In this document: in pieces, positions 7,654 through 57,559 of the stretch
Numbering within the stretch: the stretch's first letter is position 1
How the letters are laid out: every line of letters starts with the position of its first letter
Source: Jiangella alkaliphila
GTDB lineage: Bacteria > Actinomycetota > Actinomycetes > Jiangellales > Jiangellaceae
DNA: 64,000 nt
Assembly (NCBI RefSeq): GCF_900105925.1
Contig: NZ_LT629791.1
Coordinates: forward strand, 7,596,001 to 7,660,000
Direction of reading: 5' to 3'
The notes under the pieces: model-generated
The model's input: only the letters and a program-made list of their open reading frames with translations
Database searches by the model: none
Told to the model about the DNA's origin: nothing
Program-made: the position numbers and the translations under genes

Positions 7654-8033
7654 CGTCTCCCCTTCGCCTACCGATGTCACCGGCTTCCCGGCGGTCGGAC
7701 CTCAACGGATCCAGTATCGCCGCGCACCGGCCAGGCCTGTACGGTGCCTGATCCGCGCAGCGGCAGCTGGACGATCGGCGTTCCGGCAGATGTCAACCGA
7801 TCGCTGCGGCAAACCTAAGGCTCATGCTGATCCACGAGGTCCAGCGGGTCCCTGAGCTTCCGGGCTGCCGGGACGAGGAGACGCTGTCGTGCCGCTGGAG
7901 GTCTGCCGTCTCATCCGACGGCAGACCTCCAGCGGGTCGAGCGGCTCCGGTGGCCCATGCTGGGCCGTCAGCCGACGAGGTCGACCCGGGCGCCCTCCTC
8001 GGCGAACTTCATGTCCTGGACCGCCCAAGGCCC
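7654..8033. other. Intergenic region between oxidoreductase and sialidase, with an in-frame coding-like tail
   Basis: No complete gene is supported here. The region holds a long perfect hairpin (7892-7935, listed separately). Directly behind the sialidase TAG, 21 further sense codons in the same minus-strand frame run to TGA 7968-7970 and read like protein (AVQDMKFAEEGARVDLVG). This may be the decayed end of a longer C-terminus or of another gene. The part from 7654 to 7820 presumably contains the promoter of the oxidoreductase, but no convincing -35/-10 pair stands out. Confidence 0.4.
7892..7935. terminator. Long perfect hairpin, probable terminator
   Basis: A perfect 19-bp inverted repeat (7892-7910 and 7917-7935) with a 6-nt loop (TCATCC). 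It lies about 100 bp downstream of the sialidase stop and has no U-tract, as is common for actinobacterial terminators. The core GTCTGCCGTC resembles that of the hairpin at 57512-57559. Confidence 0.6.
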
Positions 8034-24066: not shown

Positions 24067-24105
24067 TGTTGACTTGAGCGCCAACTGTTGGCGCTCAAGT
24101 CAACA
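24067..24105 (+). terminator. Long perfect hairpin after the P450 gene
   Basis: An 18-bp perfect inverted repeat (24067-24084 and 24088-24105; left arm begins TGTTGACTTGAGC) with a 3-nt loop and no U-tract, 42 bp after the P450 stop. Confidence 0.7.
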
Positions 24106-30542: not shown

Positions 30543-31672
30543 CGCTCGTCCTCCTTGCTGCGCCGCCGGCGCACGGACGCGATGCGGCTGCTCAGCCGCC
30601 GCGGCCGGCCGCCGCGGCGGGTCCGGTCGATCAGGGTGCGCAGCGCGTCGGTGACCACCTCGTGCCGTTCCAGCAGCACCATGTGCCCGGCGTCGGTGGC
30701 CTCGATGTACTCGACGTCGACCAGCGCGTCGGCGAGGTCGCGGCCGTGCTGCACCGGCGTCATCTGGTCGCGTTCGCCGCCGATGACCAGCACCGGGATC
30801 TTCGACAGGACGGGGATCGCCCCGGCGGCGTCGAGCTCGCCGAACAGCGGGAAGAACCGCGCGACGACGTCGATCGGCACGGCCGCGTTCATGATGGCGG
30901 TGAACTCGACCAGCTTCGGCGAGCCGCCCTCGGCGAACGCGTAGCGCCTGGTCAGTACGTAGGCGAGGTCGCTGCCCATCTTGCGGCCGCGCTCGACCAG
31001 CTCGGGCTTGCGGGCAAGGATCGAGACGGCGGCGGGTGCGGCGCGCCCGGCCAGCCGGCCGAGGTAGCCGGGCAGGCCGAGCCCGGACACGTCGAGCTTC
31101 TGCCCGCTGGTGGCGATGAGCGCGACGGCGACGACCCGCTTGCCGAACAGCTCGGGGCGGTCTTCGGCCAGCGCCTGCAGCGTCATGCCGCCCATGGAGT
31201 GCCCGATCAGCACGATCGGCCCCTTCGGCACCACCTCGTCGAGCACCTGGCCGAGATCGGCGCCGAGCCGGCGGAACGACAGTTCGCCGTCGTCGGGCAG
31301 GGGGCCGGACCGGCCGTGCCCGCGCTGGTCCCAGAACACCAGCCGGGCGGTGCCGCGCAGGTCGCGGCGCTGGAAGTGCCAGGCGTCGGTGGTGAGGGCG
31401 AAGCCGTGGCAGAACACCAGCGTGGGTGCGTCGCGGGCGTCGGGCGCTTCGTCGACCTCCACGTGCAGGTCGACGCCGTCGTCGGTGGTGACGGTACGGG
31501 CGGCGCCGCGCAGCGAGCCGAACGGCTCGTCGGCGTACGGGTCGTCCTTCTTCAGCGACCGGCCCATGGCGTAGCGCTCGGCGGCGAACCCGACGGCGGC
31601 GCCGGCGGTCGCCACGCCGACCCAGGCGCCGATCAGGCCGGCGGTGCGCCCGGCCGCGACGAGCCTGCTCAC
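30539..31672 (-). CDS. Alpha/beta-fold hydrolase with N-terminal membrane-like segment
   Basis: 377 residues. The first 35 residues are hydrophobic (TAGLIGAWVGVATAGAAVGF) and may anchor the protein or act as a signal. The hydrolase core has the oxyanion region VFCHGFALTTDAW, FWDQRGHGRSG, the nucleophile elbow LIGHSMGGMT, a late Asp in LVIGGERDQMTP and the catalytic His in ATDAGHMVLLERH. Substrate unknown. GTG 31672 overlaps the alr stop (GTGA). It is a conserved guest between alr and tsaE in actinobacteria. Confidence 0.87.
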   Translation of the reverse strand: MSRLVAAGRTAGLIGAWVGVATAGAAVGFAAERYAMGRSLKKDDPYADEPFGSLRGAARTVTTDDGVDLHVEVDEAPDARDAPTLVFCHGFALTTDAWHFQRRDLRGTARLVFWDQRGHGRSGPLPDDGELSFRRLGADLGQVLDEVVPKGPIVLIGHSMGGMTLQALAEDRPELFGKRVVAVALIATSGQKLDVSGLGLPGYLGRLAGRAAPAAVSILARKPELVERGRKMGSDLAYVLTRRYAFAEGGSPKLVEFTAIMNAAVPIDVVARFFPLFGELDAAGAIPVLSKIPVLVIGGERDQMTPVQHGRDLADALVDVEYIEATDAGHMVLLERHEVVTDALRTLIDRTRRGGRPRRLSSRIASVRRRRSKEDER

Positions 31673-32844
31673 AGCTCTCCGTTGACGTAGACGCGGGGCA
31701 GCCGCGGGGCGAACCGGGTGACGATCTCGTACGAGATGGTACCTGCGGCGTCGGCCCAGTCCTGCGCCGTGGGCTCGCCGGCCTCGGCGTCGCCGAACAG
31801 CACGACCTCGTCGCCCGCCCGGACGTCGTCGTCGCGCAGGTCGACGACGAACTGGTCCATGCAGACCCGGCCGGCGATGCGCCGGGTGACGCCGCGCACC
31901 AGTACCGGCCCGCCCGGACCGGCGGAGCCGCCGGACGCGTGCCGCGGGACGCCGTCGCCGTAGCCGAGCGGCACCAGCCCGAGCGTGGACTCGCGGTCGG
32001 TGACGTACAGGTGCCCGTACGACACGCCCTGACCGGCCGGGACCCGCTTGACCAGCGCCAGCCGGGCCCGCACCGACATGGCCGGGCGCAGCCCGACGTC
32101 GGCCGGCCCGACCTGCTGCGGCACCGGCGACAGCCCGTACGTGGCCAGGCCCGGCCGGACGAGGTCGAAGTGGGCGTCGCGCAGGGTCAGCGTGGCGGCG
32201 GAGTTGGCGAGGTGCCGGACCTCGGGCCGGACGCCGCGCGACTCGGCCAGCGCGGCGGCGTCGCGGAACGCGGCCAGCTGCTGGGCGTTGGCGGGGTGCT
32301 CGGGCTCATCGGCGCAGGCCAGGTGCGACCAGAGGCCGACGACCTCGACCAGCCCCTCGGCCTGGGCCTTCAGCGCGTCGTCGACCAGCGTCGGCCAGTC
32401 GGCCAGCGGCGCGCCGGACCGGCCCATGCCGGTGTCGGCCTTGAGGTGCAGCCGGGCGGTGTGGCCGGTCTCGCGGGCCGCGGCGGTGATCTCGGTGACC
32501 GCCCACGGCGCCGACGCGGACACGTCCACATCGGCGGCCAGCGCGTCGGCCCACCGCTCGCCGGGCGCGCACAGCCAGGCCATCAGCCGTCCGCCGACCC
32601 CGGCGGCCCGCAGTGCGAGCGCCTCGGCCAGCGTGGCGGTGCCCAGCCAGGTGGCGCCGCCGGCCTGCGCCGCGCGCGCCGACGGGACCAGCCCGTGGCC
32701 GTACGCGTCGCCCTTCACGACTGCCATGACCTGCGCGGGAGCGGCCCGAACGGCGAGCTCGGCGACGTTGTCGCGGATGGCGGCCAGGTCGACCCGCACC
32801 TCCGCGTGCGGCACGGGCCCGGGGCCGTACTGATCGGTCACCAC
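31669..32844 (-). CDS. alr: Alanine racemase
   Basis: A PLP enzyme that makes D-alanine for peptidoglycan, about 391 residues. It starts near EVRVDLAAIRDNVAELA; the PLP lysine lies in VMAVVKGDAYGHG, and the catalytic Tyr of the C-terminal domain in GQGVSYGHLYVT; LVPLGYGDGVPR and VCMDQFVVDL are family segments. GTG 32844 (or the adjacent GTG 32841) follows GGGG and is taken as start; the frame to 33153 would read through the MITE-like element. It leads the alr-hydrolase-tsaE-pentapeptide operon. The 241-bp foldback element lies 77 bp upstream, so its promoter is either inside or beside that element. Confidence 0.93.
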   Translation of the reverse strand: MVTDQYGPGPVPHAEVRVDLAAIRDNVAELAVRAAPAQVMAVVKGDAYGHGLVPSARAAQAGGATWLGTATLAEALALRAAGVGGRLMAWLCAPGERWADALAADVDVSASAPWAVTEITAAARETGHTARLHLKADTGMGRSGAPLADWPTLVDDALKAQAEGLVEVVGLWSHLACADEPEHPANAQQLAAFRDAAALAESRGVRPEVRHLANSAATLTLRDAHFDLVRPGLATYGLSPVPQQVGPADVGLRPAMSVRARLALVKRVPAGQGVSYGHLYVTDRESTLGLVPLGYGDGVPRHASGGSAGPGGPVLVRGVTRRIAGRVCMDQFVVDLRDDDVRAGDEVVLFGDAEAGEPTAQDWADAAGTISYEIVTRFAPRLPRVYVNGEL

Positions 32845-32920
32845 GTCCCCGATTGTGTCAGCCGCCGCCGACAACGACTGTCCGCCCCTCGCGACCGGGC
32901 GGGCGGGGTGGTCGCTGCGC

Positions 32921-33161
32921 CCTTTGCAATGAGCACCGATACGCACCACCCGGGCTCCAGGCGGCGGCGGTGCGTAGAGGAGCTCTTCGCAAGCACTGTG
33001 CGGCGGCGCTGTGGCTGCCCGGCCGCCACCGTGCGGCCGCGCTGTCGTCAGGGCCGTAGCGCACCCACACCGTTCCCACAGCCGCGCCGCACAGAGGCGG
33101 CCGAGGTCGCCGCCGGGGCCGCGCATCAGGCAGCGGTGCGTATAGGTGCTCATTGCAAAGG
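32921..33161. mobile_element. MITE-like foldback element upstream of alr
   Basis: A 241-bp non-coding element bounded by 27-bp terminal inverted repeats, 32921-32947 (begins CCTTTGCAATGAGCACC) and 33135-33161, with one mismatch. The trinucleotide CGC on both flanks could be a target duplication. Inside, 32969-32993 is a degenerate inverted copy of the left end, and 32996-33014 pairs with 33076-33094 (17 of 19). It encodes no transposase. It fills most of the 326-bp gap between alr and nnr. No other copy is in the window. Confidence 0.6.
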
Positions 33162-33170
33162 CGCGGACGA

Positions 33171-34643
33171 CTACTCAGCGGTCAAGGGGTGGACGGCACC
33201 CGCACCGACAACGCCGCGCAGGGACCGCAACACCCCGGGCAGCGCGGCCAGGACGTCGGCGGCGCTCGGGTAGCCGGAACCGGCCGCCGCGCGCTGCCCG
33301 GCCAGCCCGTGCGCGTACGCCGCCACGCTGCCCGCGTCGAGCGGCGACAGCCCGCCGGCCAGCAGCGATCCCGCCAGCCCGGCCAGGACGTCGCCGGTCC
33401 CGGCGGCGGCCAGCGCCGACGTGCCGGTCGGGTTGACCCGCACCCGCCCGTCCGGCGCCGCGACCACCGTCGTCGAGCCCTTGAGCAGCACGACCGCGTT
33501 CCACCGCGTCGCAGCCGCCCGCGCGTGGTGCAGCCGGCGCGCCTCGACCTCGGCCCGCTCGACGCCCAGCAGCCGGGCCAGCTCGCCGGCGTGCGGCGTC
33601 AGCAGCGCCGGGCCGGCGAACCGCTCCGGCAGCCCGCGCAGCCCGTCGGCGTCGACCAGCACGGGCAGCCCGGCGCCCAGGGCCGCGCGGACGTCGTCCT
33701 CGCGGCCGTCGCCCAGCCCGGACCCGACCGTCCATGCCTGTACGCGCCCGACGACGTCCGGCGACGGCCCGGCGATCGCCTCGGGCCACCGCTGCCGCAC
33801 CTCGACGGCGACGGCGTCGGGCCCGGCGTAGCGGACCATCCCGGCGCCGCCGTGCAGCGCACCGCCCACCGCCAACACCGCCGCGCCCGGAAACTGCGCC
33901 GATCCGGCCAGCACGCCGACCACGCCGCGGGAGTACTTGTCCGACTCGCGGCCCGGATCGGGCAGCAGCGTCGCGACGTCGGCGTCGTCGAGCACCGTCA
34001 GCTCCGGCGACGGCAGGTACGGCCCGAGCCCGATGTCGACGTGGTGCACGACGCCGGCCACCGTGGCCGCCGGGTCGACGACCAGCGCCGTCTTGCCGGT
34101 CCCGAACGTGACGGTGTGGTCGGCGACGACATGCTCGCCGGGGGTCTCGCCGGTGTCCGGGTCGACGCCGCTGGAGAGGTCGACGGCGACGACGGCGCCG
34201 GCCGTGCGCCCCGCCCGCAGTAGCGCCGCCAGCTCGGCCGCGTCGCCGCGCAGCCCGCCGCGCCCGCCGATGCCGAGGATGCCGTCGAGCACCAGGTCGG
34301 CCGCGGCCAAGGCGCCGGCGGCGGCGCCGAGGTCCACCAGCCGCCCGCCGGCGGCGCGGAACGCCGCCAGCCCCTCGGCGTGCGCCTTATCGGGGTTCAG
34401 CAGGACGGCGTCGGCGTGCGCACCGCGCCGGGCCAGCCGCGCGCCGGCCCACAGCGCGTCGCCGCCGTTGTTGCCGGCCCCGGCCAGCACGACCACGCGC
34501 GCGCCGTACACCCCGTCGAGCAGTCCCGCGCACACCGTCACCAACCCCGCGACGGCCCGCTGCATGAGCGCGCCGTCGGGCAGCCGGGCCATCAGCGCGT
34601 CCTCGGCGGCCCGGATCTCCTCGACGGTGTGGACGCCGATCAC
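33171..34643 (-). CDS. nnr: Bifunctional NAD(P)H-hydrate epimerase / ADP-dependent dehydratase
   Basis: A metabolite-repair enzyme of 490 residues that restores damaged NAD(P)H hydrates. The N-terminal YjeF_N epimerase domain (about 1-210) shows [15 protein letters not shown] and [16 protein letters not shown]. The C-terminal ribokinase-like dehydratase (about 230-490) shows [31 protein letters not shown] and the GTGDVLAGL anion hole. GTG 34643 overlaps the acpS stop (GTGA). The gene order acpS-nnr-alr is standard for actinobacteria, but here the MITE-like element separates nnr from alr. Confidence 0.93.
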
Positions 34644-57511: not shown

Positions 57512-57559
57512 ATGGGTGAGCGTCTGCTGTCGCCAGGACGACAGCAGACGCTCACCCAT
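57512..57559. terminator. Long perfect hairpin between convergent genes
   Basis: A perfect 21-bp inverted repeat (57512-57532 and 57539-57559) with a 6-nt loop (CCAGGA) between the convergent oxidoreductase and GNAT genes. A probable bidirectional terminator without U-tract; the core GTCTGCTGTC resembles the hairpin at 7892-7935. Confidence 0.75.

Follow-up and report, generated by a model that had tools for sequence, protein, structure and literature searches.

The palindromic element between nnr and alr belongs to a family of about 50 interspersed copies in its genome. The copies lie close to gene 3' ends, many are retained at orthologous sites in related genomes, their two arms change together, and one base of the arm has changed in place across a species. 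We consider it about an even chance (probability roughly 0.5) that this is a REP-like family whose members are retained as cis-acting sites at gene ends and read by a putative trans-acting factor. The window is the whole stretch of DNA that was analysed (64 kb), G000 is the genome that contains it (7.7 Mb, one contig), and G000 to G011 are the 12 Jiangella genomes compared.

A family of interspersed palindromes

BLAST of the element against G000 returned 113 matches, and the 15-mer GGTGCTCATTGCAAA, allowing at most one mismatch over the whole genome, gave 45 forward and 44 reverse matches (reversed control, 0). Fifty of these places were read, and 45 of them were complete two-ended elements. 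The family unit consists of two 25-nt half-sites in inverted orientation, TTTGCAATGAGCACCnnnACGCACC, with the arm profile TTTGCAATGAGCACC-nnn-ACGCACC (positions numbered from 0), in which the outer 14-nt block is nearly invariant. A half-site alone forms no hairpin of the REP type. The G000 elements fell into size classes of 50 bp (15 elements), 60–62 bp (13), 69–72 bp (6), 77 bp (1) and 131–237 bp (10), and the predicted fold energies were -39.0 kcal/mol for a 50-bp copy and -44.9 kcal/mol for a 61-bp copy.

Several larger or compound copies were also observed. Six G000 loci (L070, L071, L080, L085, L086 and L102) form a subclass of about 180–200 bp with a related core and a second hairpin with TTGGC/GCCAA arms, and in some of these copies the homology passes beyond the TTTGCAA ends. 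Tandem duplications anchored at the element were found in G001 (L177–L185 and L188), including eight half-sites with a period of about 38 bp at L177 and three right ends with a 149-bp period at L178. At one gene end, a large copy with a single end lies, as read by eye, between direct repeats of about 25 bp (L093, 1450–1474 and 1627–1651).

Structure of the element in the window

The sequence-only reading described a non-coding foldback element with near-perfect 27-bp terminal inverted repeats, a third degenerate inverted end and a second inner hairpin, and all of these were recovered (Table 1). The arms at 32921–32947 and 33135–33161 are complementary at 26 of 27 positions, with one mismatch. 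The region of the third half-site also matches 33129–33158 at 83% as direct repeat D2, and together with the left half-site it makes a 71-bp palindrome that fits the 69–72 bp size class. At 237 bp the window copy is the longest of the G000 elements; it consists of this 71-bp palindrome, whose right arm has decayed, then a hairpin unique to this copy and then another right arm. No copy of the inner hairpin was among the matches listed elsewhere in G000 or the genus. It is thus an atypical, rearranged, enlarged and partly decayed family member.

Table 1. Features of the element and its neighbouring genes (window coordinates).
Feature	Position	Strand	Description
alr (alanine racemase; name from the sequence-only reading)	31669..32844	-	gene call; 78 bp from the element
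Left half-site	32923..32947	+	TTTGCAATGAGCACCGATACGCACC; 49.4 of 51.9 bits against the 224-arm profile; inverted repeat I1
Third, decayed half-site	32969..32993	-	17.3 bits (maximum 51.9); orientation of a right end
Inner hairpin, left arm	32996..33014		inverted repeat I2, 19 nt, 89%
Inner hairpin, right arm	33076..33094		inverted repeat I2, 19 nt, 89%
Right half-site	33135..33159	-	consensus sequence, 51.9 bits
nnr (name from the sequence-only reading)	33171..34643	-	gene call; stop 11 bp from the right half-site

Only these three half-sites exceeded 14 bits in the 64-kb window, in agreement with the earlier remark that it holds no second copy, and three shuffled windows gave no match. The longest exact arm (17 nt) lies at the top of the range of 20 shuffles (13–18 nt); arm length alone is therefore not enough, and it is the copy number in the genome that places the repeat beyond chance. 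The flanks of the window copy (...GCGCC/GGCGC...) are mirror-symmetric. In an Rfam search the element gave only a match to Hrs13, at 16.7 bits and thus below the gathering score of 52.

The gene alr was matched in all 12 genus genomes, and nnr was likewise matched in genus genomes. The alr frame stays open across the whole element (window 31669–33153), as far as an ATG within the right half-site, which is a trap for annotating the alr start site. A second alr-like gene (G000:C1:4074138–4075138, L084), with 66% identity to the alr DNA, also has an element copy alongside, both in G000 and in G001 (L210).

Position relative to genes

Location, spacing and pairing were analysed in a set of 112 copies (45 from G000, 44 from G001 and 23 from G010), in which orthologous sites are not independent. 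With neighbour genes called by a home-made codon score and no annotation pipeline, 99 copies could be placed: 50 between convergent, 36 between tandem and 13 between divergent genes. The rest comprised three copies called inside a gene, one without a neighbour and nine on loci that were too short. As a baseline, the gaps of at least 40 bp in the window included 4 convergent and 13 divergent ones. Adjacent gene 3' ends lay at a median distance of 31 bp (n=136) and adjacent gene starts at 83 bp (n=62), and in nine cases the TGA of the element end is itself the stop codon of the neighbour. None of the 224 flanks had a U-tract (at least four T in 10 nt). The strand favoured by wobble pairs did not clearly follow transcription (16 same, 11 opposite), and an RNA role is thus not supported by the wobble test.

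Spacing of the half-sites and pairing of the arms

Gaps of up to 40 bp between the two half-sites of the 112 copies were concentrated at 0 bp (47 copies), 10–12 bp (39) and 19–22 bp (11), with single copies at 14, 24, 25, 27 and -10 bp and none at 1–9 bp. The same gap classes came out of a pattern search in which the inner CGCA and TGCG blocks could be 2 to 32 bases apart. Two readings of these classes remain: the half-sites may be bound on one helical face, or the classes may have been inherited from a few founder lengths. Some orthologous sites differ in gap by amounts other than whole helical turns (21 to 25, 187 to 0 and 11 to 14 bp).

At the variable positions 14–17, the two arms of a copy agreed more often than arms shuffled between copies in all three genomes: 137 of 176 positions in G001 (shuffled mean 114.4; reached by 0 of 2000 shuffles), 75 of 92 in G010 (59.3; 0 of 2000) and 144 of 180 in G000 (132.8; 5 of 2000). 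The four bases were identical in 31 of the 39 copies of 60–62 bp, and matched in only 17 of the 47 copies of 50 bp. Among 21 diverse 50-bp copies, 16 cells were doubly changed with pairing kept (shuffled mean 6.1; reached by 0 of 500 shuffles), and columns 6 and 45 form A-U, C-G or G-C depending on the copy. Such covariation of the arms could come from selection on pairing or from quasipalindrome correction.

Orthologous copies and a species-wide change

Orthologous copies, identified through their flanks with the element masked, comprised 20 pairs between G010 and G001, 12 between G010 and G000 and 17 between G000 and G001. In the pairs between G000 and G001, 702 of 714 core positions were identical (98%), compared with 0.88 identity in the flanks at 20–120 bp. 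Introgression of element alleles between these two genomes was considered and rejected, as the flanks are no more alike close to the element than further away.

Position 23 of the arm differed between species at these same sites. In G010 it was T in 42 of 42 arms at orthologous sites, while the G001 orthologues of the G010 sites carried C/C in 17, T/T in 2 and A/A in 1 of 20 cases and the G000 orthologues C/C in 12 of 12. In the G010/G001 pairs, position 23 differed in 36 of 40 arm pairs, compared with 28 of 800 comparisons at the other 20 core positions. The G010 set came from a pattern that fixed positions 8–13 and 19–22 of both arms, so that identity there is by construction, and left position 23 free; over all 25 matches to this pattern, T was found by eye in 49 of 50 arms.

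Private features of single sites were kept beside the changed base: TTG triplets (L328/L212), an asymmetric CAT/TATG arm pair (L297/L224) and a private loop, ACCTGGTGCC (L329/L214). Copying between sites therefore does not explain the change everywhere, since at those sites the tracts copied ectopically would have to be only a few bases long; at other sites the triplet changed together with position 23. We read the change as sites that probably adapted to a changed trans-acting factor, while a motif-specific mutation process may be an alternative.

Distribution in the genus

A covariance model built from 21 copies, with most palindromes counted twice (once per strand), gave 113 matches in G001, 72 in G000, 62 in G010, 12 in G011, 6 in G009, 4 each in G003 and G007 and 2 in G006, and none in G002, G004, G005 and G008. 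None of the 10 genomes searched from other Jiangellaceae genera contained the motif. Single exact matches in a viral contig and in two MAG records of no relation were taken as chance, and the family is probably specific to Jiangella.

The search of the genome and its relatives that the sequence-only reading proposed thus found a multi-copy family with a patchy presence at the nnr-alr site, where the element occurs in G000, G001, G010 and G011 (4 of 12 genomes). The junction is compact and without element in G002, G004, G005, G007, G008 and G009, and occupied by unrelated spacers in G003 and G006. At the G004 junction (L150) the alr leader is duplicated in tandem and the element is absent.

G008 groups with G001 and G010 in the alr and nnr tree, and its identity to G001 over 12 loci is 90–97% (85–93% between G000 and G001). 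G008 had a copy at none of the 17 orthologous sites where both flanks could be aligned. Some of its empty junctions are collapsed, a form that G005 has in common with it at several sites, and others hold unrelated hairpins, including another repeat family (by eye, unrelated hairpins stand at L254, L256 and L274). Despite its lack of covariance-model matches, G005 carries one long copy with both ends (L111); a loose automatic flag of elements at 3 of 11 G005 loci was rejected, as none was present in the sequence inspected (for L290, nt 1–420 of 529). The compact state may be ancestral or may reflect repeated loss.

Tests for a mobile element

The 45 two-ended copies showed no excess of 2–3 bp flanking direct repeats over shuffled flank pairs, although repeats of 7 and 9 bp occurred at one locus each. 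With this result and the mirror symmetry of its flanks, the CGC target duplication suggested earlier for the window copy is not supported. Insertion into a longer palindrome was also rejected, since the flank tests were negative. The Y1 transposase (PF01797) was found in none of the 12 genus genomes, whereas the control detected it in 5 of 14 named genomes; a transposase of another class may be present. Around eight single-ended loci, no second end above 10 bits lay within the locus of about 3 kb, and no copy with a coding core was seen. Two elements lying 1.4 kb apart in G000 (L106) were considered as an autonomous copy and proved to be two separate elements around a regulator-like gene, whose translated product we take to be a MocR-type regulator. 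A plasmid origin was tried and gave no match.

The description of the window copy as MITE-like thus stood for the foldback structure, the terminal inverted repeats, the copy number and the patchy occurrence in relatives, and found no support for the target duplication or for a transposase with the same ends, none of which was seen (the class excluded being Y1/RAYT, in the 12 genus genomes). A classic MITE reading of the family is not supported, and the copies retained at orthologous sites in separate species, the core more alike than its flanks between G000 and G001 and the in-place change of position 23 speak against a passive MITE.

Comparison with known palindromic repeats

REP and REPIN sequences are described, in the parts of the sources available, as short intergenic palindromes with paired inverted units and preferred spacings, mostly between convergent or unidirectional genes (PMC3116915, PMC3733652). 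The Jiangella family resembles them in its intergenic palindromes, two inverted half-sites, preferred spacings and tens of copies, and its location follows the REP-like pattern outlined in the available part of PMC3733652. It differs from REPIN/RAYT systems in having no Y1 transposase in the 12 genomes and no GTAG tag in the arm ends or flanks, and from REP/REPIN sequences in the in-place change of its orthologous copies throughout a species. The same source, in that part, also describes CGTC-tagged REPs as palindromic repeats for which no dedicated transposase is known (PMC3733652). The Jiangella family is likewise palindromic with no dedicated transposase known, but its unit has no terminal CGTC, spans at least 50 bp and has a nearly invariant 14-nt outer block.

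With MITEs the family shares terminal inverted repeats, a non-coding sequence, a length of 50–240 bp and dispersal, but no target duplication and no parent transposon were found. Like intrinsic terminators, it has a stable hairpin at gene 3' ends, but no U-tract. It is closer in this respect to the U-poor terminators of Streptomyces, which the available part of PMC12207403 describes as long stable hairpins near stop codons with few Us; the Jiangella hairpins are also long, stable, U-poor and near stop codons, but their primary sequence is conserved across unrelated genes. In anatomy the family belongs with the REP-like palindromic repeats, and it lacks the duplication of MITEs and the Y1 enzyme and tag of REPIN/RAYT systems. 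The accessible open-licence literature on REP/REPIN, actinobacterial palindromic repeats, Jiangella repeats and palindrome concerted evolution contained no report that we recognised as this family, and the accessible part of the J. gansuensis genome paper (PMC5292007) mentions no such repeat.

Proposed gene-end sites and alternative explanations

We propose that the palindromes would have spread in the past by a REP- or MITE-like process, with the pair of inverted 25-nt half-sites as the probable functional unit, and that the copies would now persist as cis-acting sites at the 3' ends of genes. They are predicted to fold as hairpins, in RNA or in extruded DNA, and a putative sequence-specific trans-acting factor would read them, preferring half-sites on one helix face (gaps of 0, about 11 and about 21 bp). 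The most plausible role would be the termination or insulation of transcription between adjacent genes, which are often convergent. The gene-end location, the retention at orthologous sites, the change of position 23, the covariation of the arms, the discrete gap classes and the unrelated hairpins at several G008 sites that lack the element all speak for this reading. The species-wide change in place is unusual and points to a present function. Against the reading, the 21 conserved positions out of 25 far exceed what an ordinary protein site needs and suit recent copying, and four genomes manage without any copy detected by the covariance model. The lack of U-tracts, the wobble result, the possible descent of the gap classes from a few founders, the low share of 50-bp copies with matching bases at positions 14–17 and the gap changes of other than whole turns also weigh against it.

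An explanation that we hold to be rather unlikely is that the family is a MITE- or REPIN-like palindrome, mobile but non-autonomous, which a putative transposase would move in trans, and that the present copies are functionless remnants. The dispersed, non-coding and highly identical copies with their patchy presence among species agree with it, as do the tandem duplications anchored at the element in G001 and the subclass with a related core; neither target duplications, nor Y1_Tnp, nor a coding-core copy were seen, many G000 and G001 sites are orthologous, and position 23 was altered in place and not through new insertions. Ordinary GC-rich actinobacterial hairpin terminators, shaped by RNA folding only and with arms homogenised by quasipalindrome template-switch repair, would need no specific factor at all. 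The strong hairpins and their 3'-end location fit such terminators, for which the available parts of two sources provide precedents, namely U-poor, long and stable terminator hairpins in Streptomyces (PMC12207403) and homogenisation of inverted-repeat arms by template switching (PMC8604942). We nevertheless find this account improbable, as sequence beyond pairing is kept across dispersed copies, one base changed species-wide, and G008 has unrelated hairpins at the same sites, so that the family sequence is unnecessary for a hairpin there. A regulatory RNA or leader specific to alr, which the sequence-only reading would have favoured for a single copy conserved in all relatives, is hardly credible: the element does lie upstream of alr and has the weak Rfam match, far below threshold, but there are about 50 copies beside many genes and the site is empty in 8 of the 12 genus genomes.

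Returning to gene-end sites read by a factor, a bolder version can be offered only tentatively, at clearly less than even odds. The sites would form a genus-specific set spread over the genome, the factor would need its two 25-bp half-sites to lie 0, 1 or 2 helical turns apart, its recognition sequence would have switched in place at nearly every site, in both half-sites, in one species, and the set would be gone in a close relative; the family would then record a natural and recent change of DNA-recognition specificity. How short bacterial palindromic repeats spread, and whether they have any function, is a long-standing question. With a species-specific base at the same sites in three genomes and absence in a fourth, the trans partner would be traceable by genome comparison and binding tests, and the spacing classes make a sharp, testable prediction of the binding mode.

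Other repeats

Three other hairpins in the window (57512–57559, 24067–24105 and 7892–7935) have exact arms of 19–21 nt, longer than any in 20 shuffled windows. A separate palindromic repeat, CATGATCATCAACCTT (L267, L273), gave 80 matches in G008, 75 in G002 and fewer elsewhere in the genus, and several of the G002 matches lie near contig starts, as expected for an insertion sequence or a derivative of one.
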